Source of the DNA: Enorma phocaeensis
Lineage (GTDB): Bacteria > Actinomycetota > Coriobacteriia > Coriobacteriales > Coriobacteriaceae
Assembly: GCF_016901575.1 (NCBI RefSeq)
Contig: NZ_JACJKQ010000019.1
Coordinates: forward strand, 1 to 38,096
DNA: 38,096 bases
Direction of reading: 5' to 3'
Positions 12,321 to 27,286 of this stretch are shown one piece after another. A model generated the notes under the pieces. It had not been told where the DNA came from and ran no database searches. It saw nothing but the letters and a program-made list of their open reading frames with translations. Positions within the stretch are counted from its first letter, which is position 1. Each line of letters begins with the position of its first letter. Made by a program: the position numbers and the translations under genes.

Positions 12321-13358
12321 ATGGGATGGCAACGTCTCAAGGCGCATCAGATCACGCCGAGCACCTTTCGAGAGGTGCGCTCGATGCTGCGCGCCGAGCA
12401 CGCCGCGCCGGCGATCGCCGTGTGCACCGCGGTCGTGGCGGTGCTCGTGTGCCGGGCGTTTTCCGAGGCTCTTCCCGCACCATGGGGAGCTGCGGCGTCG
12501 AGCGCCGTCGCCGTCGCCGCGCTGGGCGCCGTCGCCGCGGTCTTTCGCCTGGCGCGCCCCCGTCGACGCGACTGCTCGCGCATGCTCCCGCAGGTCATGC
12601 GCGAGCTGTACCCGGATTTCTCGTTCGACGCCTCGGCCGGCCCCGACCAGATACGCACCCTGCTGCCTTCCGGGGTGCTCAAGCTGGTCGACGGCGTCGA
12701 CTTCTACGAGGGGACGCTCTGCAGGCGCACGCCCCAGGGCGACATACGCATCTATGCCGTAGAGGCCTGGGACTCTGCAGGCGAGGACAACGTGCTGCGC
12801 CAGCATCTCGTCTACGAGCTGCGTGCACCGTTCTCGATCCCCTCGGTCCCGCAGGGGTATGTCGAGGTCGTCGACGGGCGCGCGCCCGCGGCGGTGACCT
12901 GGCGCGAACGCGTCGCCGGGGCGGCGGCCGGGGTCGCGCGCGGCGTCGCCACGCTCCTGCCGGGGGAGCGCCAGGGGTTCGGCAGGGTCCCGGGCAGCTG
13001 GCTCAACGTCCGCACCGACTGTCCCGAATGCGCCCAGGCGCTGCTGAGCCCCGCCGTCACCCGCGCGCTCGAGGCATATTTCGACGCCTGCCGCGAAGAG
13101 CTGCCGCTCCGAAAGGCGGGGTCGGTGGTATTTGCCGGAACCATGGTGTATGTGGTGGTGCCCGACGCCACGCTTGCGGTGGACGGCTCCACATGGAAGC
13201 GGGTGACCGAGGAGGGCATCAACGGAAATGCCGACCTGGTCCGTCGCCGTCTCGACGCGATCCTCTCGCTCGTCGACAGCTTGAGAAGCCAGGGGGACAA
13301 GGGCCCCGCCCCCGGCGCCGCTCGCGACGGGGCAGGACCCTCCAAGTGGGCCGCCTAG
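12321..13358 (+). CDS. DUF3137-like membrane-anchored protein, unknown function
   Basis: 345 residues. Two hydrophobic helices are near the N-terminus (PAIAVCTAVVAVLVC and SSAVAVAALGAVAAVF), followed by a soluble domain containing YPDFSFDASAGPDQI and a stretch around RIYAVEAW that resembles DUF3137 proteins. The resemblance is by general layout (two helices then a mixed alpha/beta domain) and is not certain. The C-terminal 25 residues are low-complexity. The ATG at 12321 follows GAGGGGATAGACG. It is convergent with the 863-codon fusion gene; the two TAG stops overlap in a shared CTAG. Confidence 0.5.
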   Translation: MGWQRLKAHQITPSTFREVRSMLRAEHAAPAIAVCTAVVAVLVCRAFSEALPAPWGAAASSAVAVAALGAVAAVFRLARPRRRDCSRMLPQVMRELYPDFSFDASAGPDQIRTLLPSGVLKLVDGVDFYEGTLCRRTPQGDIRIYAVEAWDSAGEDNVLRQHLVYELRAPFSIPSVPQGYVEVVDGRAPAAVTWRERVAGAAAGVARGVATLLPGERQGFGRVPGSWLNVRTDCPECAQALLSPAVTRALEAYFDACREELPLRKAGSVVFAGTMVYVVVPDATLAVDGSTWKRVTEEGINGNADLVRRRLDAILSLVDSLRSQGDKGPAPGAARDGAGPSKWAA

Positions 13359-15946
13359 CAGGTGGCGCCGCCCGTCACCTGCTTTGCCAAGATGGCGTCC
13401 TTGTCTATGGGCGCCGTCAGCAGCTTGTCTTGCACATAGTCAAAGCCGAGGCGCGCCACGGTGTCGGCGAAGCGCTCGCCCGAGCGCCCCTCGTCACGGA
13501 AGAAGAGGATCGCCCGCTCGACGACGGCCATCACCTCGTCCTCGCTCGTGAAGATCTTCTCGAGCGCCTGTCCGTGGGCGGTCTTTTTGCCCCAGCGCCC
13601 GCCGATGTAGACCTTATATCCAACGAGGTCTTCCGTGATGGCGCCGAAGGGGCAGCTTCCGATGCAGCGCCCGCAGTGGTTGCAGAGTGTCTCGTCGATG
13701 GTGATCTTGCCGTCGGGCCCCACCTGGGCGTCGCCCATGGGGCAGGCCTTCACCACCTGGCAGACCTTGCACGCGCGGCAGCGGTCCATATCGATCCCCG
13801 GCACGCGCTGCCCGACGATGCCCAGGTCGTTGAGGTCGGGCTTGACGCACATGTTGGGGCAGCCGCCCACGGCGATCTTGAACTTGTGCGGCAGCTCGAC
13901 GCCGTGGTAGCCCACGTAGAAGCGCTCGTGGAGCTTCTCCGAGAGCTCGAAGGTGTCGATGAGGCCGTACTGGCACGTGGTGCCCTTGCAGGAGACCACG
14001 GGGCGCACCTTGGAGCCGGTTCCGCCCGCGTCGAGGCCGGCGTCTTGCAGAAAGGCGATGCAGTCCTCGATGCTCTCGTACCTCACGCCCTGGATCTCGA
14101 GGGTGAGGCGCGTGGTCATGGTGACCTCGCCGGAGCCGAAGCGCTCGCTTGCCTCGGCGACGACCTTTTGCTCTGCGGCGGTGAGCTTTCCGTTGCGCGT
14201 GATCACGCGGATGTTGAAGACGTCGTCGTAGCGCTTGTCCTGGAGACACCCCAGGCCCTTCAAGCGCTTGATCTCCGCTGCGGGAAGCTTGGTGCCTTGG
14301 CGAGGCACCTTGACCTCGTTGAACGTGATGCCTCCCTCGAGCACGCGCGTGGCGGTGTAGCCCGCCGCCTTGAGACGGTTCTGGGCGAAGTAGCCGCGCT
14401 TGCCCTTGGCGCAGACGAGCAGGACCTTTGCGTCGCGCGGGATGCCCTCGATGCCGTCCGGCCCGATCTTGGTGAGGTCCACCCAGCGCGCGCCGGGGAT
14501 GGTGGGTGCCGGAAGGACGTCGACGACCTCCCAGCCGGCCGCCTCGCCGGCTGCGTACTGCGCCGGAGTGAAGGTCTCCAGGCGACCGTCGAGCTTGTTT
14601 TCCAAGATGTAGCAGCAGGTTACCAGGGGATGGATCGCCGTGGAGAACGGGGGAGCGTAGCTCAGGTCAAGAAGGTCGAGGTCGTCGACGGCAAGGCCCT
14701 GGTAGATGGCCATCGCGGCGACGTCGCACATCTTGTCCACGGCGCCCGCGCCAAAGACCTGCATGCCCAGAAGGCGCCTCGAGGGCGCGTCGGCGATGAG
14801 CTTCACCGAGAAGCTCGAGGCGCCGGGATAGTAGTGCGCCTTGTCGTCGACGACGGCGACGACGCTTCGGGGCTCGAAGCCCGCCTCGTTCGCCTGCGCC
14901 TCGGTGAGGCCCGTGCGGCCTCCGTTGAGGGTGGCGGAAAGCTTGACGACTCCGGTTCCCAGGACGCCGGGGTAGGGCGTCGGGGTGCCGGCGAGGGTCT
15001 TTGCGAGGGCGCGCGCGGAGATGTTTGCCGTCGACCCCATGGCGCTCCACTGGGGAAGGCCCGTGACGGCATTGCGCACCTCGGCGCAGTCGCCGGCGGC
15101 GTAGACGTCGGGCAGGTTGGTCTTAAGGTACTCGTCTACGACGATGGTTCCCTTGAACATCTCGATGCCCGAGCCGTCGAGCCACGCGGTCGCGGGACGG
15201 ATCCCGATGGCGAGCACCACGATGTCTGCGGGAAGGGTTCCCGCCGCGGTCTCGACGGACGCCGCGCGGCCTGCGCCTGCGCCCTCGCCGGGCCTGATGG
15301 AGGCGAGCGCGCACGAGGTCATGATGCGCATGCCGATCGCTTTGAGCTGGCGCGTGGCCCAGGCGGCCATCTCGGGGTCGAAGGCGTTGGGCATGATCTG
15401 GGGCGCGGCGTCGATGACGGTGACCGAGAGGCCGCGGGCGTGCAGGTTCTCTGCGACCTCGAGGCCGATGAAGCCGGCGCCCACCACCACGGCGCGTCGG
15501 CAGGGGAGCTCGTCCACATAGGTGCGTATGCGCTCGGCGTCGTCGGGCGTGCGGACGCAGAAGACCCCGTCGAGGTCGGTGCCGGGAACGGGCGGCACGA
15601 ACGGCGCCGCGCCGGTGGCGATGACGAGCTTGTCGTAGGGCTCGGCGCCCACCGAGCCGTCTGCACGGCGCACGGCGACGGTTTTCGCCGCCGCATCGAG
15701 CCCCGTGGCCTCGACGCCGGTTTCTACGGCGACGCCGGTAAGCCCTTCGTACGCCGCCGGGGTGTTCACGATGAGCTCGTCGCGCGTGGCGATGCCTCCA
15801 CCGATGTAGTAGGGCAGGCCGCATCCGGCGTAGGAGATGTCGGCGTCGCGGGTGATGACGCGCACGTCGGCCGTGCGGTCGCAGCGCTTGAGCTTTGCGG
15901 CAACCTTGGTTCCGGCGGCCACGCCGCCGACAATCAGATACTTCAT
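13355..15946 (-). CDS. CoA-disulfide/persulfide reductase-rhodanese-siroheme reductase-ferredoxin fusion
   Basis: 863 residues in four modules. Residues 1-445 are an FAD/NAD(P)H CoA-disulfide reductase: GGVAAG at 7-12, redox Cys42 in YAGCGLPYYIGG, second dinucleotide site GAGFIG at 157-162. Residues 455-550 are a rhodanese domain with active loop CAKGKRG (Cys512). Residues 565-715 resemble the siroheme/4Fe-4S half of sulfite/nitrite reductases, with Cys653, Cys658, Cys696 and Cys700; the first pair is C-x4-C where the classic family has C-x5-C. Residues 720-770 hold two 4Fe-4S ferredoxin motifs (Cys723/726/729/735 and Cys755/758/761/765). GAGAGGGG precedes the ATG at 15946. A likely role is NAD(P)H-driven reduction of persulfide, polysulfide or sulfite to sulfide in the cytoplasm; the reaction is inferred. 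Siroheme synthesis is encoded at 17459-17932. Confidence 0.85.
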   Translation of the reverse strand: MKYLIVGGVAAGTKVAAKLKRCDRTADVRVITRDADISYAGCGLPYYIGGGIATRDELIVNTPAAYEGLTGVAVETGVEATGLDAAAKTVAVRRADGSVGAEPYDKLVIATGAAPFVPPVPGTDLDGVFCVRTPDDAERIRTYVDELPCRRAVVVGAGFIGLEVAENLHARGLSVTVIDAAPQIMPNAFDPEMAAWATRQLKAIGMRIMTSCALASIRPGEGAGAGRAASVETAAGTLPADIVVLAIGIRPATAWLDGSGIEMFKGTIVVDEYLKTNLPDVYAAGDCAEVRNAVTGLPQWSAMGSTANISARALAKTLAGTPTPYPGVLGTGVVKLSATLNGGRTGLTEAQANEAGFEPRSVVAVVDDKAHYYPGASSFSVKLIADAPSRRLLGMQVFGAGAVDKMCDVAAMAIYQGLAVDDLDLLDLSYAPPFSTAIHPLVTCCYILENKLDGRLETFTPAQYAAGEAAGWEVVDVLPAPTIPGARWVDLTKIGPDGIEGIPRDAKVLLVCAKGKRGYFAQNRLKAAGYTATRVLEGGITFNEVKVPRQGTKLPAAEIKRLKGLGCLQDKRYDDVFNIRVITRNGKLTAAEQKVVAEASERFGSGEVTMTTRLTLEIQGVRYESIEDCIAFLQDAGLDAGGTGSKVRPVVSCKGTTCQYGLIDTFELSEKLHERFYVGYHGVELPHKFKIAVGGCPNMCVKPDLNDLGIVGQRVPGIDMDRCRACKVCQVVKACPMGDAQVGPDGKITIDETLCNHCGRCIGSCPFGAITEDLVGYKVYIGGRWGKKTAHGQALEKIFTSEDEVMAVVERAILFFRDEGRSGERFADTVARLGFDYVQDKLLTAPIDKDAILAKQVTGGATC

Positions 15947-16183
15947 GCGGTTCCCCTCTCGTGGCTGTGCCCGTCAGGCGGCACAGGTGTCTTTCATGAT
16001 AGGCTCGCCGCAAACGTATCGCCCCCTGATTTGCGACAGCGGGCGCTATGGGTCCGCAAAGGGTCATGGGCGCGCCGGAGCCTGCCGTTGCCGGGCGGGG
16101 CGCCCGCCTTCGTGGGACTCGCGCCGGAGCCCTTTGCCGGCGCATGCGGTGGGCGCGCATCTATCGCGTGCGGTCCGCTTGCG

Positions 16184-17096: not shown

Positions 17097-17459
17097 ATGA
17101 AGGTTGCTATTCCTACCATGGGCGAGGGCGGTCTGGACTGCGAGCGCTCGGGACATTTTGGCCATTGCGACTGCTTTACCGTGGTGGACATCGACGACGG
17201 CAAGGTCGGGGCGGTGCAGGTGCTGGAGAATCCGCCCCACGAGGAGGGCGGGTGCATGCGGCCCGTGTCACTGCTTGCCGATGCTGGCATCGATGCGATC
17301 GTCGCTGCGGGCATGGGGATGCGCCCCATGATGGGGTTCGCCCAGGCCGGCATCACGGTGCTCTTTGACAACACCACGCCCGGCGTGGGCGCGGTGGCGG
17401 AGCTTGCCGCCGCGGGCGCCCTCCCCGAGATGGGGCCCGAGAACGCGTGCCACCACTGA
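17097..17459 (+). CDS. NifX/NafY-type dinitrogenase cofactor-domain protein
   Basis: 120 residues from MKVAIPTMGEGGLDCERSGH; AAGGAGGAG at 17083 sets the start. This is the small stand-alone form of the domain found in NifX, NifB C-terminus and NafY, which bind Fe-Mo cofactor precursors or other metal clusters. The conserved pattern is present: MKVAIP, then HFGHCDCFTVVDID and IDAIVAAGMGMRPMMGF. No nitrogenase genes are here, so it is one of the many stand-alone family members linked to Fe-S or metal handling in anaerobes. Its stop (TGA 17457-17459) overlaps the ATG of the siroheme-synthase gene (TGATG), so the two are co-translated. Confidence 0.82.
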   Translation: MKVAIPTMGEGGLDCERSGHFGHCDCFTVVDIDDGKVGAVQVLENPPHEEGGCMRPVSLLADAGIDAIVAAGMGMRPMMGFAQAGITVLFDNTTPGVGAVAELAAAGALPEMGPENACHH

Positions 17460-17932
17460 TGTCCGGCTGCGCGCCGGCGGGGAGCCCTCCGCGATTCCCC
17501 CTGTTTGTGAGTCTGGTTGGCGCCCGCTGCCTCGTGGTGGGGGCGGGTGCCGTCGGACGCCGGCGCGCGGAGGCGCTCGCGAGCCACGGGGCGGTCGTGA
17601 GGGTGGTGGACCCGCGCGCCGCCGAGGCGTGGGCGAACGGGGCGGCCCCGGGGTCGGTCGAGCTGGTGTTGCGCCCCTTCCTGCCGGGTGACGAGGAGTC
17701 CTGCTCGCTCGCGGTGGCGGCGACGAGCGACCGGGAGACGAACCGCCTGGTGGGGGAGCGCTGCCGCGCCGCTGGCATCCCCGTATCGGTCGCGGACGCT
17801 CCCGATGAGTGCACGTTTTTCTTTCCGGCGCTCTGCGAGACCGAAGACCTGAGCGTCGGGGTGGTGTCGCGAGGGGGCGACCATGCCCTCGTCGCCCGCG
17901 TCGCCGAGGCGATTCGCGCGCTGATCGCGTAG
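17459..17932 (+). CDS. Precorrin-2 dehydrogenase/sirohydrochlorin ferrochelatase (Met8/CysG-N-like)
   Basis: 157 residues from MSGCAPAGSP, starting at the ATG in TGATG shared with the upstream stop. The N-terminal Rossmann domain has CLVVGAGAVGRRRAEAL (glycines at 28-33). The catalytic-loop region is VSVADAPDECTFFFPA, equivalent to the conserved Asp-containing DDP-FxxPA segment of CysG/Met8; next is SVGVVSRGG. The family oxidises precorrin-2 to sirohydrochlorin with NAD and may insert iron to give siroheme. It is shorter than E. coli CysG because the methyltransferase half is absent, and also lacks most of the helical C-terminal region of Met8. It probably supplies siroheme to the reductase domain encoded at 13355-15946; that link is inference. 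Confidence 0.82.
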   Translation: MSGCAPAGSPPRFPLFVSLVGARCLVVGAGAVGRRRAEALASHGAVVRVVDPRAAEAWANGAAPGSVELVLRPFLPGDEESCSLAVAATSDRETNRLVGERCRAAGIPVSVADAPDECTFFFPALCETEDLSVGVVSRGGDHALVARVAEAIRALIA

Positions 17933-19182: not shown

Positions 19183-20283
19183 ATGGACCTTCTTCTTCAC
19201 GTCGTCGAGCATGCCTTTGAGGACACCTGGCCGCTCGTGCCGTTTTTGTTTGTAACCTATCTGGTGCTCGAGGCGCTTGAGCACGCTGCCGGTGACAAGG
19301 TGAACTCGCTGGTCAAACGTGCCGGCGCCGCGGGACCGGTGGTCGGCGCGGTGCTGGGCGTCGTCCCGCAGTGCGGCTTTTCGGCAATGGGCGCCACGCT
19401 CTATGCAGGCCGCGTCATCACGCTCGGCACCCTTGCGGCGGTGTTTTTGTCCACGTCGGACGAGATGCTGCCCCTGCTCATGGCGGAGCGCCTCGATGCC
19501 GGCTCGCTCGCGGGAATCCTGCTTGTCAAGGCGGCGGTCGCAGCGGTGACCGGCCTCGCCATCGACCTCGGCCTCCGGGCACTCAGCCGCAATGCGCATG
19601 CCCATGCGGCCCTGAGGCGCCTGGCGCGCGGGACGGAGGCGGAGCGCGACCTCATCGACGAGATGGCTGATGCCGGCGAGAGCACCGAATACATCCATCG
19701 CCTCTGCGAGTATGACCACTGCGGCTGCGACGACGCGCCGGCAGGCGGGCCGGGGCATGCGGACGACGCCACTGGCGTCCATGAGGGCCATGGGGACCAT
19801 GCCCACGCGCACACCTCGCACCGTCACGTACGGCCTGGCGACGATGCCTGCTGCGCCAATTCCCATGGGCATGAGCACGGGGGCGGCGGGACCGTTTGGC
19901 CCATCGTCCGCAGCGCGCTGTCCCACACCATCCAGGTGAGCTTGTTCATCTTCATCGTCACCTTGGCGCTCGTGGCGTTGCTCGAGACTGTGGGCGAAGA
20001 CGCGCTCTCGGCATTTCTCGCCAGCAACCAGACGCTCGCCCTGTTCGCCTCGGCCTTGGTGGGCCTGGTGCCCAACTGCGCGGCGAGCGTGGTGATCACG
20101 CAGCTCTACCTCGAGGGCGTGCTCGGCTTCGCTCCGCTCATGTCGGGAACGCTCGTGGGCGCCGGCGTGGGGTTCCTCGTGCTCTTCCGCACCAATCACA
20201 ACGCCCGCGAGAACGCCATCATCCTGGCGATGCTCTACGCGGTCGGCGTGGTGTGGGGCTTTGTGTTCATGGCGCTTTTCTAG
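19183..20283 (+). CDS. Putative ten-helix heavy-metal exporter (ArsP_2/DUF2899-like)
   Basis: 366 residues with about ten membrane segments in two related halves. The motif VLGVVPQCGFSAMGATLYAG in the first half is echoed by LVGLVPNCAASVVITQLYLEG in the second, an inverted internal repeat. The cytoplasmic loop between the halves (about 180-240) is rich in His and Cys (EYDHCGCDD, HEGHGDHAHAHTSHRH, DDACCANSHGHEHG), which suggests metal binding. This layout fits the putative heavy-metal or manganese exporter family related to the arsenic permease ArsP. The metal cannot be told from sequence. ATG 19183 follows GAAAGGGAG with a spacing of about 10. Its stop shares CTAG with the convergent YaiI-family gene. 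Confidence 0.8.
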   Translation: MDLLLHVVEHAFEDTWPLVPFLFVTYLVLEALEHAAGDKVNSLVKRAGAAGPVVGAVLGVVPQCGFSAMGATLYAGRVITLGTLAAVFLSTSDEMLPLLMAERLDAGSLAGILLVKAAVAAVTGLAIDLGLRALSRNAHAHAALRRLARGTEAERDLIDEMADAGESTEYIHRLCEYDHCGCDDAPAGGPGHADDATGVHEGHGDHAHAHTSHRHVRPGDDACCANSHGHEHGGGGTVWPIVRSALSHTIQVSLFIFIVTLALVALLETVGEDALSAFLASNQTLALFASALVGLVPNCAASVVITQLYLEGVLGFAPLMSGTLVGAGVGFLVLFRTNHNARENAIILAMLYAVGVVWGFVFMALF

Positions 20284-20892: not shown

Positions 20893-21654
20893 CTACCGCG
20901 CGTGGGCGACGATGGCGTCGCGCAGCCAGGCGGCGCAGCCCTCGACCGCGCGGTCGTAATAGCCGCGGAATCGGTCGTCGGCGACGTAGGCCTCGGCAAG
21001 CCCGCGGTGCGCCTCGGCGGAATACGCGGGCCAGGTATAGCCCAGCCACGTGCGATGCATGCTGCAGATCCGTTCGCCCGTCTCGCCCGCGGGATCGTCT
21101 CCCGCCGTGACGGCCCCCTCCAGCTCGGTGCGGATCTGCTCTTCCAGTTTGCGGAAATCCGTATATTCCTGCTTGCTCATCCTCAGCATCTTCCTGTTGC
21201 TCTCGTCGGCGACGTCGTCTCCGTAGCGCTCGCGAACCTCGGCTCCGTAGCGCTTTTCGTTCTTATCCACGAGATTCCGTTTGAAACCTTCGAACTTCTC
21301 GATGTCGGTCATGGACCCAGCTCCTTCCAAAGTCGCGAGCGTTCGCTCGACGGTGGCGATGAGGCGCGTCAGGCGGAGCCGCTCGTCGCGCAGGCGGCCA
21401 AGATGGCGCGCGAGCAGATCGGCGCGCTCGGCGGGCGTCGTGCTCAGCAGCGGGCCGATGTCGCGCACCGCCACGCCGCAGCGGCGCAGCAGCAAGATCT
21501 CCTGCAGCCGATCGGCGTCTGCGCTGCAGTACAGCCGATAGCCGCGTTCGCTGCGGCCCGAGGGCGCGAGCAGCCCCACTTCCTCGTAAAAGCGCAGCGT
21601 GCGCGTGGTGATCCCCGCCATGTGCGCGAGCTCCCCGATGCGGTATTCGTTCAT
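20893..21654 (-). CDS. MerR-family regulator with TipAS-like ligand domain
   Basis: 253 residues from MNEYRIGELAHMAGITTRTL. The ATG at 21654 follows GGAGGGGCC. The N-terminal winged helix (1-70) has the MerR signature TTRTLRFYEEVGLL. A coiled-coil dimerisation helix follows (about 80-120). The C-terminal half (about 130-253) resembles the TipAS antibiotic-binding domain, including YAEVRERYGDD-like text around 140-155 and the end RGYYDRAVEGCAAWLRDAI. TipA-type regulators bind thiopeptides or other drugs and activate transcription from promoters with long spacers. Its own promoter (21674-21704) has such a 19-bp spacer. The neighbouring YaiI-family gene, 58 bp downstream, may be in the same transcript. 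Confidence 0.85.
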   Translation of the reverse strand: MNEYRIGELAHMAGITTRTLRFYEEVGLLAPSGRSERGYRLYCSADADRLQEILLLRRCGVAVRDIGPLLSTTPAERADLLARHLGRLRDERLRLTRLIATVERTLATLEGAGSMTDIEKFEGFKRNLVDKNEKRYGAEVRERYGDDVADESNRKMLRMSKQEYTDFRKLEEQIRTELEGAVTAGDDPAGETGERICSMHRTWLGYTWPAYSAEAHRGLAEAYVADDRFRGYYDRAVEGCAAWLRDAIVAHAR

Positions 21655-21673
21655 GGCCCCTCCTTCGAGCTCC

Positions 21674-21704
21674 ACGATATCGCTTTACGTAACGGTAAGG
21701 TCAA
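21674..21704 (-). promoter_or_regulatory. MerR-type promoter/operator with 19-bp spacer
   Basis: On the minus strand TTGACC (21704-21699) and TATCGT (21679-21674) are separated by 19 bp. The spacer contains an imperfect dyad (CCTTACCGTTACGTAAAG). This is the classic MerR-family arrangement, which suggests autoregulation. The predicted transcript start, near 21667, leaves almost no leader before the ribosome site. Confidence 0.7.
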
Positions 21705-21851: not shown

Positions 21852-22703
21852 ATGAACGTGGGGGAGCAGATCAGGCGCGGGCGCGAGGCGCTTGGGATGT
21901 CGCAGACAGACCTGGCGGATGCCATCTGGGTTTCGCGCAACACGGTGTCGAACTGGGAGACGGGCGCGACGACCCCGGATATCCAAAGCTTCATTCTCAT
22001 GAGCGCCCTGTTCGGCATTACGATCGACGAGATGGTGAAGGGCGACGCAAACGTGATGGCGCAGGCCATCGCGCGCGATCGCAACCGTCTGCTGGTGGTA
22101 GGGCCGGAGTTCCCCAAGGATGATTCCAAGGTGGGGGATGCTGCCGGCGACGGCTCGCAGAACGGATCCGAAGCGGAAGATGATGCCGCATCGATCACCC
22201 TCACCATGCCAGAGCCGCAGGGCAACGAGGTGTTCGGCAACTACGAGCGTATCGAGGCGTCGCACGACGGCGTCCCGGAGTTTCGCCTGGTGCGTACATT
22301 CGCTCTGCTCAGCATGAGCAATTACCGCATCGAGAACCGTGCCGGCGAGGTCGTGGGCACGATTCACCGCGGAAGGGCGCTGTTCGATCCGGTGTACCAG
22401 CTGCGCGTCCCGGGGTTCGAGCGCGTCCAGGTGAAGCGCGAGTGGAAGCCTGCAGACTTTCGCTATGTGTATACCATCGAGGGCGAGGGCGTGGGCGTCG
22501 ACGGCGCGGTGCTGGGCGACGAGTTCAGCATCTGGCGCCATGAGGAGCGCATCGCGACGGTGCGGGCGCTGCGCGGCGCCGGCAGGCCGGTCTATGGCAT
22601 CGAGCTTGAAGACGGAGACGCCCGCCCGCTTGCCTTTGGCGTGGCGATGATGTTTCTGATGCTGCGCGACTATGACCGGTGCTGGGTGCGGACAAGCAGG
22701 TAG
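21852..22703 (+). CDS. XRE-family regulator fused to a LURP-one/Tubby-like domain
   Basis: 283 residues. Residues 1-65 are a Cro/CI-type HTH: MNVGEQIRRGREALGMSQTD, DAIWVSRNTVSNWETG and ITIDEMVKGD are typical of XRE proteins. An acidic linker follows (about 90-120). Residues 125-283 look like a LURP-one-related/YxjI barrel: SNYRIENRAGEVVGTIHRG, VKREWKPADFRYVYTIEGEG and GDEFSIWRHEERIATVRA. In other proteins this fold may bind lipids or act at the membrane, but its role with an HTH is unknown. AAAGGGGTG precedes the ATG. It is divergent from the MerR gene. Confidence 0.75.
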   Translation: MNVGEQIRRGREALGMSQTDLADAIWVSRNTVSNWETGATTPDIQSFILMSALFGITIDEMVKGDANVMAQAIARDRNRLLVVGPEFPKDDSKVGDAAGDGSQNGSEAEDDAASITLTMPEPQGNEVFGNYERIEASHDGVPEFRLVRTFALLSMSNYRIENRAGEVVGTIHRGRALFDPVYQLRVPGFERVQVKREWKPADFRYVYTIEGEGVGVDGAVLGDEFSIWRHEERIATVRALRGAGRPVYGIELEDGDARPLAFGVAMMFLMLRDYDRCWVRTSR

Positions 22704-22779
22704 CGCGAAGGTCCAGGAGGGCGTCGGGGGCGCGGCGGGAAGGGGTTCTCGGCAGGGCTTCGGCTCCATCGCGTGCAGG

Positions 22780-22799
22780 CTGCGGCAGAAATGCCGCAG
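22780..22799 (+). terminator. Hairpin after the XRE-LURP gene (8-bp stem, GAAA loop)
   Basis: CTGCGGCA-GAAA-TGCCGCAG is a perfect stem with a stable GNRA tetraloop, 76 bp after the stop. It has no T-run, so it may be a weak or Rho-assisted terminator, or an mRNA-stabilising hairpin. Confidence 0.5.
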
Positions 22800-22837
22800 G
22801 GCGGGCGTTGCGCGGGCCGTTGCGCGCCCGATGCCGC

Positions 22838-22843
22838 TACAAT
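22838..22843 (+). promoter_or_regulatory. Likely -10 box for the hydroxyproline operon
   Basis: TACAAT lies 39 bp before the activase ATG (22882). The region is otherwise GC-rich, and no matching -35 is seen at 16-18 bp. Confidence 0.4.
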
Positions 22844-22881
22844 GGTGGGCGCTGCTTTCACCGAGCCGCCAGGAGGCCTGC

Positions 22882-23799
22882 ATGGGCGCAACCCCGACCA
22901 TCTTCAATATCCAGCGCTTCTCGACCCACGACGGGCCGGGCATTCGCACGACGGTCTTCTTCAAGGGCTGCCCGCTGCGCTGCGCGTGGTGCCACAACCC
23001 CGAATCGCAGTCATATGCCCCGGAGCTTCTGGTGGACTCGTCGCGCTGTGCCGGCTGCGGAATGTGCATCGACGCGTGTCCCGAGGGGGCGATCGCGCTC
23101 GACGATGGAGGCCGCGCGCGTTTGGACCGCGATCGGTGCCGCGCGTGCGGGGAGTGCGTGGACCTGTGCGCCCAGGGATGTCGCGAGGTCGCGGGCGAGC
23201 CTGCCGCCGAGCCGCGGGAGCTTGTGGAGCAGCTTCTCCGCGACCGCTCCTTCTTCGAGCGCTCTGGCGGAGGCGTGACGCTCTCGGGCGGGGAGTGCCT
23301 GGCGCAGGAGGAGGGCTATCTTGCCGAGCTCTGCTCGCGCCTGCACGCGCGGGGCATCCGGGTTGCAATCGACACGTGCGGCGACGTGCCTTGGGAGCGC
23401 ATCGAGCGCCTGCTGCCCGACGTCGATCTGTGGCTCTACGACATCAAGGCGGCGGACGACGTCCTCCATCGGCGTCTTACCGGCTCGTCGAACATGCGGA
23501 TTTGGGATAATCTGGGACATCTTGCGCGCTCGGGCGCGGCGGTGCGGGTGCGCATGCCGCTCGTGAGCCCGGTGAACGACGACATGGCGTGCATCGATGC
23601 TACGATTCGACTCCTTTTGGAGCGGGTGGGTACGGTGCCCGTGAGTCTGCTACCGTATCATGCAGCGGGCAATGGAAAGTATCGCCGCCTCGACCGGGTG
23701 CCGCGCGAGGATTTTCGCGTGCCCGCGGACGATGAGCTCGCATCTATTCGAGATCGGTTCTTGGACGCCGGCTTCTCCGACGTCGAGATAGGGGGCTGA
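22882..23799 (+). CDS. hypE: Glycyl-radical enzyme activase (radical SAM), HypD partner
   Basis: 305 residues from MGATPTIFNIQRFSTHDGPG; AGGAGG at 22871-22876 sets the start. The radical SAM cluster motif is C-x3-C-x2-C at Cys30, Cys34 and Cys37 (CPLRCAWCHNPE). An insert carries two more 4Fe-4S ferredoxin motifs (Cys56/59/62/66 and Cys86/89/92/96), as in activases of the choline-lyase, glycerol-dehydratase and hydroxyproline-dehydratase types. The SAM-binding GGE motif appears as LSGGECL. It would cleave S-adenosylmethionine to place a glycyl radical on the dehydratase encoded 2 bp downstream. The gene symbol rests on context, since activases of different glycyl radical enzymes look alike. 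Confidence 0.85.
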   Translation: MGATPTIFNIQRFSTHDGPGIRTTVFFKGCPLRCAWCHNPESQSYAPELLVDSSRCAGCGMCIDACPEGAIALDDGGRARLDRDRCRACGECVDLCAQGCREVAGEPAAEPRELVEQLLRDRSFFERSGGGVTLSGGECLAQEEGYLAELCSRLHARGIRVAIDTCGDVPWERIERLLPDVDLWLYDIKAADDVLHRRLTGSSNMRIWDNLGHLARSGAAVRVRMPLVSPVNDDMACIDATIRLLLERVGTVPVSLLPYHAAGNGKYRRLDRVPREDFRVPADDELASIRDRFLDAGFSDVEIGG

Positions 23800-23801
23800 G
23801 T

Positions 23802-26423
23802 ATGGGAACGTATGAAGAGACCGGCTCCGCTGCGCTCGCGGGATCGCGCGCCGAGGACGCGGCGCAGCCGCTCATGACAGAGGGGGATGTCGGCGTCCCT
23901 GCCGCCGATGCGCCCGCGGAGCCGACCTTCGCGGGGACCTTCTTCGACCTCGAGCGCGCCCAGCTCGACCTGATCGACCGGGCGCTTGGCTCGATTCGCG
24001 TCCATGGGGCCCCGAGCCGCACCACCTCGCATGCCACCTGGCAGGACGACCGCGGCATGAACGACCGCGTGAAGAAGCTGCGCCATCAAAGCGAGACGAC
24101 GCAGCCCTACCTCGACATGGAGCGCGCGCTCATCGAGACCAAGACGTATCTGGCGCACGAGGGCGAGCTCTCCCAGCCCGAGCTCCGCGGCATGGTCCTG
24201 CGCGACTACTTTGCCGAGAAGACCATACGCATCGAGCCGGGCGAGCTCATCGTGGGCGAGAAGGGACGCGGCCCCCAGGCGGCGCCGACCTTCCCCGAGC
24301 TGTGCTGCCACACGCTCGAGGACATGCATAACATGAACGACCGCGAGCAGGTGAATTTCTGCGTCACGGAGGACGACCTTGCCGCCCAGCGCGACATCGT
24401 GATCCCGTTCTGGTGCCGCCGCGCCTCGCGCGAGCGCATCATGGAGGCCCAGACGCCGGCGTGGCACGACGCCTTCGAGGCGGGTATCTTCACCGAGTTC
24501 TACGAGCAGCGTGCGGGCGGCCATACCTGCCTGGGGTCCGAGCGCGGGGCGCATGCGGGCTTCGATGAGATCCGCGGAGACATCGAGGGCGCGATCGAGG
24601 CGCTCGACTATCTCGCGGACGAGCATGCGACCGAGAAGCGGCAGGAGCTCTCGGGCATGCTGCTCGCCCTCGAGGGCGTGCAGGTGCTCGCGACGCGCTA
24701 TGCCGAGCTTGCCGGCCGCATGGCGGCCGAGGAGGCAGATCCGGCACGCGCCGCCGAGCTCGCGCAGATCGCTGAGAACTGCCGCGTGGTCGCCCATGGG
24801 CGCCCGCGCACCTTCTGGCAGTGGATCCAGCGCTACTGGTTCATCCACCTGGCCATCACGAGCGAGACCAACCCGTGGGACGCCTATACGCCGGGCCGCC
24901 TCGACCAGCATCTGATCGGCTACTATGCCGCCGACGTCGACGCCGGCCGCCTCACGCGGGACCAGGCCTTGGAGCTGCTCGAATGCCTGTGGGTGAAGTT
25001 CAACAACCAGCCGGCGCCGCCCAAGGTGGGCGTCACGCTCAAGGAGTCGGGCACCTATAGCGACTTCGCCAACATCAACACCGGCGGCATCACGCCCGAC
25101 GGAGCGGACGGCGTGAACGACGTCTCGTACCTCATTCTGGACTGCATGGACGAGATGATGTTCATCCAGCCCAACTCGAACGTGCAGATCTCGCGCAAGA
25201 CGCCGCGGGCGTTTTTGCGCCGCGCCTGCGAGGTGGCGCGCGCCGGGTGGGGGCAGCCCGCGTTCTATAACACCGAGGAGATCATCGACGAGCTGCTCAA
25301 TGCGGGCAAGTCGCTCGCCGACGCCCGCCGAGGGGGCTCTTCCGGCTGCGTGGAGACGGGCTGCTGGGGATACGAGGCCTACCCGCTCACCGGCTACTTC
25401 AACCTGCCGAAGATCCTCGAGATCACCCTGAACGACGGCGTCGACCCGCGCACCGGCAAGCGCATCGGCCTCACCACGGGCGACCCGCGCTCCTTCTCGT
25501 CGTTCGACGAGCTCATGGACGCCTACCTGCGCCAGATGGACTACTTCATCGACATCAAGGTCCGCGGCTCGAACATCAACACGCGCCTGTGCGCCCAGCT
25601 GAACCCCGTGCCGTTCATGTCGCTCATGACCGAGGACTGCATCGCCCGCGGCGAAGACTACAACGCCGGCGGCGCGCGCTATAACACCACCTATCTGCAG
25701 GGCGTGGGCATCGGCTCCATCACCGACGCGCTCGCGTCGCTCAAATACAACGTGTTCGACGAGCGGCGCTTCACCATGGACGAGCTGCTCGGCGCCTTGG
25801 CGGCAAACTTCGAGGGCGCCGAGTACGTGCGGATGAAGAACCTGGTGAGCCGCAGGACGCCCAAGTTCGGCAACGACGACGACTATGCGGACGCCATCAT
25901 GCGCGCCGTGTTCGACCACTTCCACGATGCGGTGACGGGACGTCCCAACATGCGGCGCGGCGAGTGGCGCATCGACATGCTGCCCACGACCTGCCACATC
26001 TACTTTGGCGAGGTCACGGGCGCGTCGCCTTCGGGCAGGCTCGCCGGCGAGCCGGTCTCGGACGGCATCTCGCCCGAGCGCGGGGCCGACACGCAGGGAC
26101 CCACCGCGGTGATCAAGTCCTGCTCGAAGATGGACCACGCCGCGACGGGCGGGACGCTGCTCAACCAGAAGTTCGCGCCTGCCGCCATCGAGGGGGAGAA
26201 GGGCCTGGACAACCTCGCCGACCTCGTTCGCACCTACTTCGACCTGGACGGGCATCATATCCAGTTCAACATCGTCGACCGTGCCACCCTCATCGATGCG
26301 CAGAGGCACCCCGAGCGCTACCCCGATCTCATCGTGCGCGTGGCGGGCTTCTCCGAGAAATGGTGCAACCTGGGGCGCGAGCTGCAAGACGAGATCATCA
26401 ACCGAACGGAGCAGGCGTTCTAG
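23802..26423 (+). CDS. hypD: Trans-4-hydroxy-L-proline dehydratase (glycyl radical enzyme)
   Basis: 873 residues if started at 23802, or 788 from the internal ATG at 24057 (MNDRVKKLRHQSETT), which is where HypD proteins normally begin. Counted from 24057, the thiyl cysteine and base glutamate (GGSSGCVETG) fall at 431 and 433, a Tyr 16 residues later, and the glycyl radical glycine (RVAGFS) at 764. These match HypD of Clostridioides difficile (Cys434, Glu436, Tyr450, Gly765, recalled from memory). HypD removes water from trans-4-hydroxyproline to give 1-pyrroline-5-carboxylate, and proC follows directly. The 85-residue N-terminal extension includes a possible amphipathic helix (FFDLERAQLDLIDRAL). 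The start at 23802 has a G-rich site only 2-3 bp after the activase stop; the start at 24057 has a weak site. A different GCVE-class dehydratase is less likely. Confidence 0.85.
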   Translation: MGTYEETGSAALAGSRAEDAAQPLMTEGDVGVPAADAPAEPTFAGTFFDLERAQLDLIDRALGSIRVHGAPSRTTSHATWQDDRGMNDRVKKLRHQSETTQPYLDMERALIETKTYLAHEGELSQPELRGMVLRDYFAEKTIRIEPGELIVGEKGRGPQAAPTFPELCCHTLEDMHNMNDREQVNFCVTEDDLAAQRDIVIPFWCRRASRERIMEAQTPAWHDAFEAGIFTEFYEQRAGGHTCLGSERGAHAGFDEIRGDIEGAIEALDYLADEHATEKRQELSGMLLALEGVQVLATRYAELAGRMAAEEADPARAAELAQIAENCRVVAHGRPRTFWQWIQRYWFIHLAITSETNPWDAYTPGRLDQHLIGYYAADVDAGRLTRDQALELLECLWVKFNNQPAPPKVGVTLKESGTYSDFANINTGGITPDGADGVNDVSYLILDCMDEMMFIQPNSNVQISRKTPRAFLRRACEVARAGWGQPAFYNTEEIIDELLNAGKSLADARRGGSSGCVETGCWGYEAYPLTGYFNLPKILEITLNDGVDPRTGKRIGLTTGDPRSFSSFDELMDAYLRQMDYFIDIKVRGSNINTRLCAQLNPVPFMSLMTEDCIARGEDYNAGGARYNTTYLQGVGIGSITDALASLKYNVFDERRFTMDELLGALAANFEGAEYVRMKNLVSRRTPKFGNDDDYADAIMRAVFDHFHDAVTGRPNMRRGEWRIDMLPTTCHIYFGEVTGASPSGRLAGEPVSDGISPERGADTQGPTAVIKSCSKMDHAATGGTLLNQKFAPAAIEGEKGLDNLADLVRTYFDLDGHHIQFNIVDRATLIDAQRHPERYPDLIVRVAGFSEKWCNLGRELQDEIINRTEQAF

Positions 26424-26485
26424 GCTCTCCCAGGCGCCCCCTTATACGCTTTTACCATGCTGACACCGACCGAAAGGATATGGAT

Positions 26486-27286
26486 ATGGCTAAGGAACTG
26501 GCACTCATCGGCTGCGGCAACATGGGCAGCGCCATCGCGAAGGGCGTGGTGAGCTCCGGGCTCGTCGCGCCCCGGGACCTGGTGGTCGCCGATGTGTCCG
26601 AGGCGTCTCAGAAGCGTCTTGCGGCAGAGCTGGGCTGCGCGGGGACCTGCGATAACGTCGAGGCCGTGAGCGGCGCGAAGATGGTGCTCATCGCGGTGAA
26701 GCCGCAGTATCTGGACGACGCCGTGAGCGCCTTTGCGCATGCGGTCGACGAGGGCGCGATCGTGGTGTCCATCGCCGCCGGCGTCTCGCTCGAGCGCCTT
26801 GAGGGGCTTTTGGGGGCGGGGCGCAAGATCGTCCGCGTCATGCCCAACCTCGCGGCGACGGTGCTCGCCGCCATGAGCTCGCTGTCGCCCAACGCCAACG
26901 TCTCAGAGGACGAGACGGACCAGGTGAAGCGCATCTTCGATGCGCTCGGCCGCGCCGAGGTGGTGCCCGAGCACCTGATCGACGCCGTGATCGCCGCCTC
27001 GGGCAGCTCGCCCGCCTACGTGTGCGTCTTTATCGAGGCCCTGGCGGATGCCGCGGTTGCCGAGGGCATGCCGCGCGCCCAGGCATACACCTTCGCCGAG
27101 CAGGCGGTTCTGGGCACGGCCAAATACCTGTTGGAGACCGGCACCCATCCGGCGGTGCTCAAGGACATGGTGTCGAGTCCCGCGGGCACCACGATCGAGG
27201 CCGTCGCCGCGCTCGAGCGCGGCGGGATGCGCGCCGCGGTGATCGATGCCGCCCGCGCCGCGGCAGCCAAGAACCGCGCGATGTAG
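26486..27286 (+). CDS. proC: Pyrroline-5-carboxylate reductase
   Basis: 266 residues from MAKELALIGCGNMGSAIAKG. GAAAGG at 26472 gives 8 bp spacing to this ATG; the ATG six bases earlier is too close. The NAD(P)-binding loop is GCGNMG. The C-terminal ProC signature region is [20 protein letters not shown], with the conserved tail MVSSPAGTTIEAVAALE. It reduces 1-pyrroline-5-carboxylate to L-proline. In this operon it would complete conversion of dietary or collagen-derived hydroxyproline to proline after HypD, and it could also serve normal proline synthesis. It lies 62 bp after hypD with a possible weak promoter between (AT-rich stretch near 26441-26452). It ends in a strong hairpin at 27331-27358. 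Confidence 0.93.
   Translation: MAKELALIGCGNMGSAIAKGVVSSGLVAPRDLVVADVSEASQKRLAAELGCAGTCDNVEAVSGAKMVLIAVKPQYLDDAVSAFAHAVDEGAIVVSIAAGVSLERLEGLLGAGRKIVRVMPNLAATVLAAMSSLSPNANVSEDETDQVKRIFDALGRAEVVPEHLIDAVIAASGSSPAYVCVFIEALADAAVAEGMPRAQAYTFAEQAVLGTAKYLLETGTHPAVLKDMVSSPAGTTIEAVAALERGGMRAAVIDAARAAAAKNRAM

Follow-up and report, generated by a model that had tools for sequence, protein, structure and literature searches.

The 38,096-nucleotide stretch of Enorma phocaeensis DNA analysed here (contig NZ_JACJKQ010000019.1, hereafter the window) encodes an 863-residue fusion protein, in which a coenzyme A (CoA)-disulfide reductase and a rhodanese are joined to a sulfite reductase domain of the siroheme type that carries two inserted 4Fe-4S motifs. 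It represents a real, conserved and apparently undescribed fusion family; no description of this fusion was found in the open-access literature searched, which is no proof of absence. The protein may reduce sulfite all the way to hydrogen sulfide within a single chain, with a cofactor that many of its hosts apparently lack the means to make de novo. The reading that we favour, with a chance a little short of even, is a one-chain sulfite-to-sulfide reductase in which sulfur is handed over between the modules. An invariant C-terminal cysteine and an incomplete siroheme pathway in the hosts are the family's most interesting points.

Domain architecture and predicted folds

The fusion gene is a single open reading frame on the minus strand (13355-15946; ATG plus 863 codons plus stop), with a putative AGGGG-type ribosome-binding site, GAGAGGGGAACCGC, directly 5′ of the ATG (15947-15960, minus strand). 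All features within the gene given below lie on this strand. The CoA-disulfide reductase and rhodanese occupy residues 1-545, and the sulfite reductase domain with its two inserted 4Fe-4S motifs occupies residues 556-863. Pfam matches above the curated cut-offs were Pyr_redox_2 (residues 2-294), Pyr_redox_dim (343-439), Rhodanese (475-540), the NIR_SIR_ferr half-domain (575-634; 14045-14224), the NIR_SIR siroheme/4Fe-4S domain (644-842; 13421-14017) and Fer4 motifs (722-781). The coordinates and the four-module architecture described in the original prediction were thus borne out by the single reading frame and the Pfam order.

The CoA-disulfide/persulfide reductase module, dependent on flavin adenine dinucleotide (FAD) and NAD(P), spans residues 1-446 (14609-15946) and carries the redox cysteine C42 (15821-15823). 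The rhodanese domain (residues 461-545; 14312-14566) has its active-site cysteine, C512, in a CAKGKR loop (14411-14413). These residues aligned with C42 and C508 of Enterococcus CoAPR (EfCoAPR), both of which are required, with C508 persulfidated in cells (PMC9405070). The Pfam Rhodanese match barely passed (24.9 against a cut-off of 22.2 bits); sequence alignments to solved CoA-disulfide reductase (CoADR)-rhodanese proteins, including CoADR-RHD, spanned this region and reached residue 542. The inserted ferredoxin domain (residues 722-770; 13637-13783) contains two cysteine sets (723/726/729/735 and 755/758/761/765), separate from the siroheme-linked set, and these match the two 4Fe-4S clusters that had been predicted.

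None of the NCBIfam models matched by the fusion reached its own cut-off. Scores were 353.6 bits for the CoA-disulfide reductase equivalog TIGR03385 (cut-off 578.8), 103.3 for AsrC (TIGR02912; 324.1), 91.9 for DsrA (TIGR02064; 392.85), 90.7 for DsrB (TIGR02066; 341.5) and 233.2 for NirB (TIGR02374; 578.35). Gut H2S is usually attributed to Dsr, Asr and cysteine degradation (e.g. PMC9016944). Because it falls below their cut-offs, the fusion would escape surveys that rely on the AsrC, DsrA, DsrB and NirB models.

A model of the full-length chain (predicted local distance difference test, pLDDT, 84; predicted template modelling score, pTM, 0.73) matched persulfide reductases over residues 1-544 (VIA-align; 6pfz, Z 41.9, root-mean-square deviation (rmsd) 2.4 over 529 residues; 8a56, Z 40.7; 3icr, Z 40.3). 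By sequence, this half was 34-36% identical to the solved NAD(H)-dependent persulfide reductase, CoAPR and CoADR-RHD (Z 40-42), in agreement with the kinship to CoADR-rhodanese persulfide reductases proposed earlier. Since the full-length fold search was dominated by the CoADR part, the siroheme part was also folded alone (pLDDT 91.9, pTM 0.87). Its best match was the coenzyme F420-dependent sulfite reductase Fsr (Z 29.2, rmsd 2.8, 283 residues), which was also the best match of the C-terminal half by sequence. DsrAB (Z 22-23) and then assimilatory nitrite and sulfite reductases (Z 15-21) followed. The structure prediction that had been suggested as a check therefore gave a persulfide reductase fold for the N-terminal half and an Fsr fold for the siroheme part.

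Family, conservation and phylogeny

A GTDB contig scan yielded 80 loci, each encoding a full-length relative of the fusion. Once genomes from a phylum draw were added, there were 89 aligned rows, 82 of them distinct; the other seven were copies of the same sequence, the window's own among them. The distinct chains came from Coriobacteriia and Bacillota. Relatives at 77-86% identity were encoded by Collinsella, Olsenella and Thermophilibacter, and those at 63-70% by Lachnospiraceae, Blautia-like and Oscillospiraceae genomes. These are gut-type hosts, as the predicted gut setting had implied. Misassembly, a frame artefact or chance was rejected as an explanation, given 81 other distinct full-length chains.

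In all 89 rows C42, C287, C512, C653, C658, C696, C700, the eight ferredoxin cysteines and C863 were invariant, and C567 was kept in 88. Of the cysteines in the C-terminal half, twelve are expected to bind clusters; the remaining ones are C863, C567 and C629, the last of which is not conserved.

One Actinomycetota genome (G115) contained a two-gene form (locus L113; 4472-8391), in which the halves are adjacent overlapping genes for a CoADR-type chain of 541 residues and a siroheme chain that contains CKGTTCQYG and ends in TGGATC. The pair is convergent with a Peripla_BP_2/FecCD/ATPase-type ATP-binding cassette (ABC) importer and has a divergent LysR gene, the same partners as the fused gene. 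In a FastTree phylogeny of siroheme domains, the fused and split forms stood together on a long stem with the split form outside all fused ones. Coriobacteriia formed one clade (support 1.00) nested among Bacillota, where several deep nodes were unsupported. The tree suggests that the unusual first cysteine pair of the siroheme domain and the C-terminal tail, described below, arose once and that the gene moved between phyla.

Siroheme-domain cysteines, sulfite-binding residues and the terminal cysteine

The first cluster pair of the siroheme domain reads C653-K-G-T-T-C658 (13973-13990), one residue below the canonical spacing. Fsr and DsrA have C-x5-C in HMMER alignments, which makes this a true one-residue deletion. 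The second pair, C696-x3-C700 (13847-13861), includes C700 as the expected siroheme-bridging ligand. Instead of the canonical C-x5-C...C-x3-C motif, all chains had C-x4-C...C-x3-C, with CKGTTCQYG in every aligned row; the C-x4-C noted in the original prediction is therefore kept in all 82 distinct full-length chains. C-x5-C was present, and a terminal cysteine absent, in each of five stand-alone siroheme relatives from the class (L129-L133).

Four basic positions (R, R, K, K) that bind sulfite, described for DsrA and Fsr (PMC9295563), are kept in the fusion: R613 (14108-14110), R648 (14003-14005) and the two lysines of K688-F-K690 (13877-13885). All four aligned with Fsr, and R648, K688 and K690 also with DsrA; R613, which lies outside the DsrA alignment, was assigned by the Fsr alignment and by its invariance in distant relatives. 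The second sulfite-site arginine, lost in the nitrite-type FsrII (PMC9295563), is kept here. These residues, which the original prediction did not mention, point to sulfite as the main substrate, an assignment that we regard as somewhat better than even.

We also considered that the protein might be a persulfide, polysulfide or thiosulfate enzyme, with a siroheme domain acting on non-sulfite sulfur species or running in reverse, from persulfide to sulfite. The N-terminal half is a relative of persulfide reductases, and IscS and IscU, a source of persulfide, are encoded upstream of the fusion in six Lachnospiraceae loci. However, none of the four sulfite-binding residues has been lost, Fsr is described as working in one direction only (PMC10229431), and IscS/IscU may serve Fe-S assembly alone. 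We consider this explanation improbable.

The chain ends in a variable stalk, the last part of which, together with an invariant GGA(T/S)C tip closing with C863, forms residues 852-863 (13358-13393). This tip was GGATC in 86 rows and GGASC in 3; G859, G860, A861 and C863 never varied, while stalk residues 844-858 included many variable positions. The terminal cysteine, likewise absent from the original prediction, is kept in the split form, in contrast to Fsr and the five stand-alone relatives, which lack it. The Fsr fold alignment stops at residue 295 of the domain model, before the tail, which was poorly predicted (pLDDT ~38 in the full model and ~70 in the domain model).

A possible route from sulfite to sulfide

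Sequence establishes the architecture, the catalytic cysteines, the four residues of the sulfite site and the fold class to which each half belongs; the electron route, the substrate and the sulfur hand-over set out here are inferred. First, the siroheme-[4Fe-4S] domain would reduce sulfite with electrons arriving via the two inserted ferredoxin clusters. Zero-valent sulfur would then leave as a persulfide or trisulfide on C863 and/or C512, which would play within the chain the role that DsrC plays for DsrAB. Siroheme sulfite reductases have been described as forming S0 directly, with DsrC as its carrier (PMC13188885, PMC10504309). Finally, by homology, the CoA-persulfide reductase module (C512, CoA, C42, FAD and NAD(P)H) would turn the sulfane sulfur into H2S; homology likewise suggests that the fusion may reduce CoA persulfide with NAD(P)H.

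Three observations led us to the hand-over. The siroheme half has a spare invariant terminal cysteine, kept even when that half is a separate chain. The invariant rhodanese and CoADR pair has sulfane sulfur reduction as its known job. Lastly, DsrC was not found in the fusion-bearing Coriobacteriia and was found in three other Coriobacteriia with siroheme-domain genes; the DsrC/TusE model TIGR03342 had no match in the window's genome, the fusion gene included. Transfer through C863 and C512 to the CoA-persulfide module is nevertheless a tentative proposal, to which we give rather less than an even chance. If true, it would offer a compact system for studying the transfer of zero-valent sulfur from siroheme to a carrier cysteine.

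Several points weigh against this one-chain reductase. The modules are separate chains in the two-gene form, and the tail, which may reach into the siroheme site, is poorly predicted. The C-x4-C pair is unseen in the aligned solved relatives and the stand-alone relatives, so the cluster geometry could differ. No sulfite source was identified near the fusion gene, and a holo-enzyme in the window's genome would need a salvage route that is so far hypothetical.

The original prediction had electrons passing from NAD(P)H through FAD and the ferredoxin clusters to siroheme. Such a continuous wire would allow full six-electron reduction of sulfite (or nitrite) at the siroheme, as in Fsr or NirB; the part played by the rhodanese and the CoA site would then be accessory or regulatory. 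Precedents exist: Fsr is a flavin module fused to a like siroheme-ferredoxin unit with a cluster wire (PMC10229431), and NirB, whose model matches the fusion weakly, is a one-chain NADH-siroheme enzyme. On the other hand, the flavin module is closest to thiol/persulfide reductases and, unlike that of Fsr, has no Fe-S motif of its own; the CoADR and rhodanese cysteines are invariant, which is unexpected for vestiges; and in one genome the halves are on separate chains. We therefore retain the wire only as a rival and an unlikely one, and hold direct flow from FAD to ferredoxin as the sole route to be equally unlikely.

Returning to the one-chain reductase with sulfur hand-over, its physiological role is probably reduction of sulfite or sulfane sulfur as an electron sink, for detoxification or for sulfur supply. 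The earlier suggestion that such a protein could make sulfide in the gut from persulfides or sulfite agrees with the architecture, the persulfide-reductase kinship and the gut-type hosts.

Siroheme supply in the host genomes

The NIR_SIR_ferr/NIR_SIR fold and sequence uphold the siroheme-type domain of the original prediction, and flanking siroheme genes together with the co-occurrence of SirC, neither of them considered there, provide indirect support for siroheme binding itself, which we regard as likely. In Coriobacteriia, siroheme genes adjoin the fusion as SirC in the window (a SirC-like precorrin-2 dehydrogenase, 17459-17932, plus strand; NAD_binding_7, TIGR01470 over cut-off), as CbiK-SirC and CobA-HemD at locus L035, and as CobA-HemD immediately downstream on the same strand at L037.

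A class draw of 149 genomes included 15 with the fusion. In the window's own family, SirC was present in 9 of 9 fusion genomes versus 0 of 16 others (Fisher 5e-7, with related genomes not independent). CbiK-family genes occurred in 14 of the 15 fusion-bearing Coriobacteriia (one below cut-off), and in 13 of these 14 the gene lay on the fusion contig within ~12 kb; in the remaining genome (G088) it sat among genes of the cobalamin type on a different contig. All 15 had SirC or a CbiK-family chelatase. HemB was absent from all 15, and HemC and CobA (the latter over cut-off) were found in only two (G238 and G384). The early pathway was also missing from the window's genome (99.8% complete), a gap that the original prediction does not mention; searches there found no HemB, HemC, CobA or CbiK, and the isolated SirC-like gene, a lone middle step of the synthesis, was the only siroheme gene found. 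No chelatase was detected there, and SirC might insert the iron itself or insertion might be unassisted.

Because the early pathway is incomplete, siroheme, if used, would be finished from an imported precursor, and these gene sets imply that most Coriobacteriia hosts would complete it from a salvaged tetrapyrrole precursor. The precursor would be at the level of porphobilinogen in G238 and G384, precorrin-2 where SirC and CbiK remain, and sirohydrochlorin in the Olsenella-type group that keeps only a CbiK-like chelatase. Salvage of tetrapyrrole precursors is known for cobamides (PMC6461909), and completion of siroheme without early tetrapyrrole synthesis would extend it to siroheme. The open-access literature searched held no description of siroheme uptake or salvage, which does not prove that none exists. 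In the class draw, none of the genomes from the window's family yielded HemB, though several encode CbiK together with methylases of the cobalamin type; Coriobacteriaceae, too, may salvage tetrapyrrole precursors for cobamides.

An alternative is that in many hosts the domain holds no siroheme and acts as an Fe-S-only electron carrier or a sulfur-transfer platform. The absence of HemB, the presence of CobA in only 2 of 15 fusion-bearing Coriobacteriia and the departure of C-x4-C from canonical ligand spacing would fit this. Against it stand SirC or a CbiK-family chelatase in every one of these genomes, CobA in most sampled Bacillota hosts, and the invariant sulfite-site arginines and lysines, hardly expected without a substrate site. 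We judge a siroheme-free domain to be quite unlikely.

Eleven Bacillota loci, for the most part those that diverge furthest, have a gene for a Peripla_BP_2 binding protein downstream of the fusion on the same strand; its start lies within ~300 bases of the fusion stop in 10 of the 11, in several with an overlap. FecCD follows where the contig extends, and FecCD genes also occur downstream in three Coriobacteriia loci and, with an ATPase, near the split system. Among sampled Bacillota, HemC was missing in 9 of 9 genomes with the transporter and present in 5 of 7 without it (p 0.005), and CobA showed the same trend (2 of 9 versus 19 of 22; p 0.001), statistics that are weakened by phylogenetic dependence and the draft state of genomes. 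Among solved structures, those closest to the binding protein were iron-siderophore and haem binders, which it matched weakly, and the importer may have an iron role.

A broader picture would be a Dsr-like system that is complete on a single chain (siroheme reductase, C-terminal cysteine as built-in sulfur carrier, and NAD(P)H persulfide reductase) and that spread horizontally among gut Bacillota and Coriobacteriia. Many of its hosts, having lost early tetrapyrrole synthesis, would finish siroheme from precursors salvaged at the level of porphobilinogen, uroporphyrinogen, precorrin-2 or sirohydrochlorin, which in Oscillospiraceae-type hosts would enter through the ABC transporter encoded directly downstream. 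We offer this picture as speculative; taken as a whole it is doubtful.

Comparison with known systems

The CoADR-rhodanese proteins Npsr and CoAPR (6pfz, 8a56, 3icr, 3nta) share the N-terminal 545 residues of the fusion, with the same domain order, C42, rhodanese cysteine and FAD/NAD(P) folds; to these the fusion adds a 310-residue siroheme sulfite-reductase unit at the C-terminus. Fsr (7np8, 7npa) likewise combines a flavin module with a single sulfite-reductase repeat, an inserted two-cluster ferredoxin domain and the sulfite-binding residues. However, Fsr has an F420H2-type flavin donor equipped with clusters of its own, whereas the fusion has a donor of the NAD(P)H/CoA-disulfide reductase type: the N-terminal ferredoxin and F420H2-oxidase (FrhB-type) half of Fsr is replaced by Pyr_redox and rhodanese. 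C-x4-C, the C-terminal cysteine tail and the rhodanese further set the fusion apart.

AsrC/Dsr-like stand-alone siroheme proteins resemble the fusion in having a NIR_SIR unit with an inserted ferredoxin, but the five examined differ in their cysteines as described, and the fusion is far below the TIGR02912 cut-off. NirB is similar in joining a pyridine nucleotide flavoprotein to a siroheme domain on one chain; the fusion, far below the NirB model cut-off, has a rhodanese and an inserted ferredoxin instead.

With DsrAB-DsrC (with DsrMK or DsrL) the fusion would share, as proposed, a logic of siroheme sulfite reduction, a C-terminal cysteine sulfur carrier and separate sulfane-sulfur reduction. 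It differs in being one chain with a soluble NAD(P)H flavoprotein, in a genome without a DsrC homologue, and its DsrC likeness is limited to the terminal-cysteine logic. DsrL was weighed as an analogue and set aside; the DsrL paper mentions no rhodanese.

Other neighbouring genes

A NifX-like (Nitro_FeMo-Co) protein (17097-17459, plus strand) is a conserved neighbour, found in 24 loci including the window's own copy. A divergent LysR gene stands in 11 Lachnospiraceae-type loci, as it does beside the split form. In the window, a 345-residue open reading frame with no Pfam match (12321-13358, plus strand) is convergent with the fusion gene and overlaps its end by 4 bases. The region 22672-27286 (plus strand) encodes a glycyl radical enzyme (PFL-like plus Gly_radical), downstream of which come its radical-SAM activase and a reading frame of the pyrroline-5-carboxylate reductase type. 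We considered the glycyl radical enzyme as a sulfite source of the isethionate sulfite-lyase type and rejected it; with its pyrroline-5-carboxylate reductase neighbour, it looks like part of a trans-4-hydroxyproline dehydratase cluster. The window also encodes a MerR regulator with a TipAS antibiotic-recognition domain (20893-21675, minus strand) and an ArsP_2-type putative 10TM (ten-transmembrane) heavy-metal exporter (19183-20283, plus strand), the latter also found near the fusion at L035.

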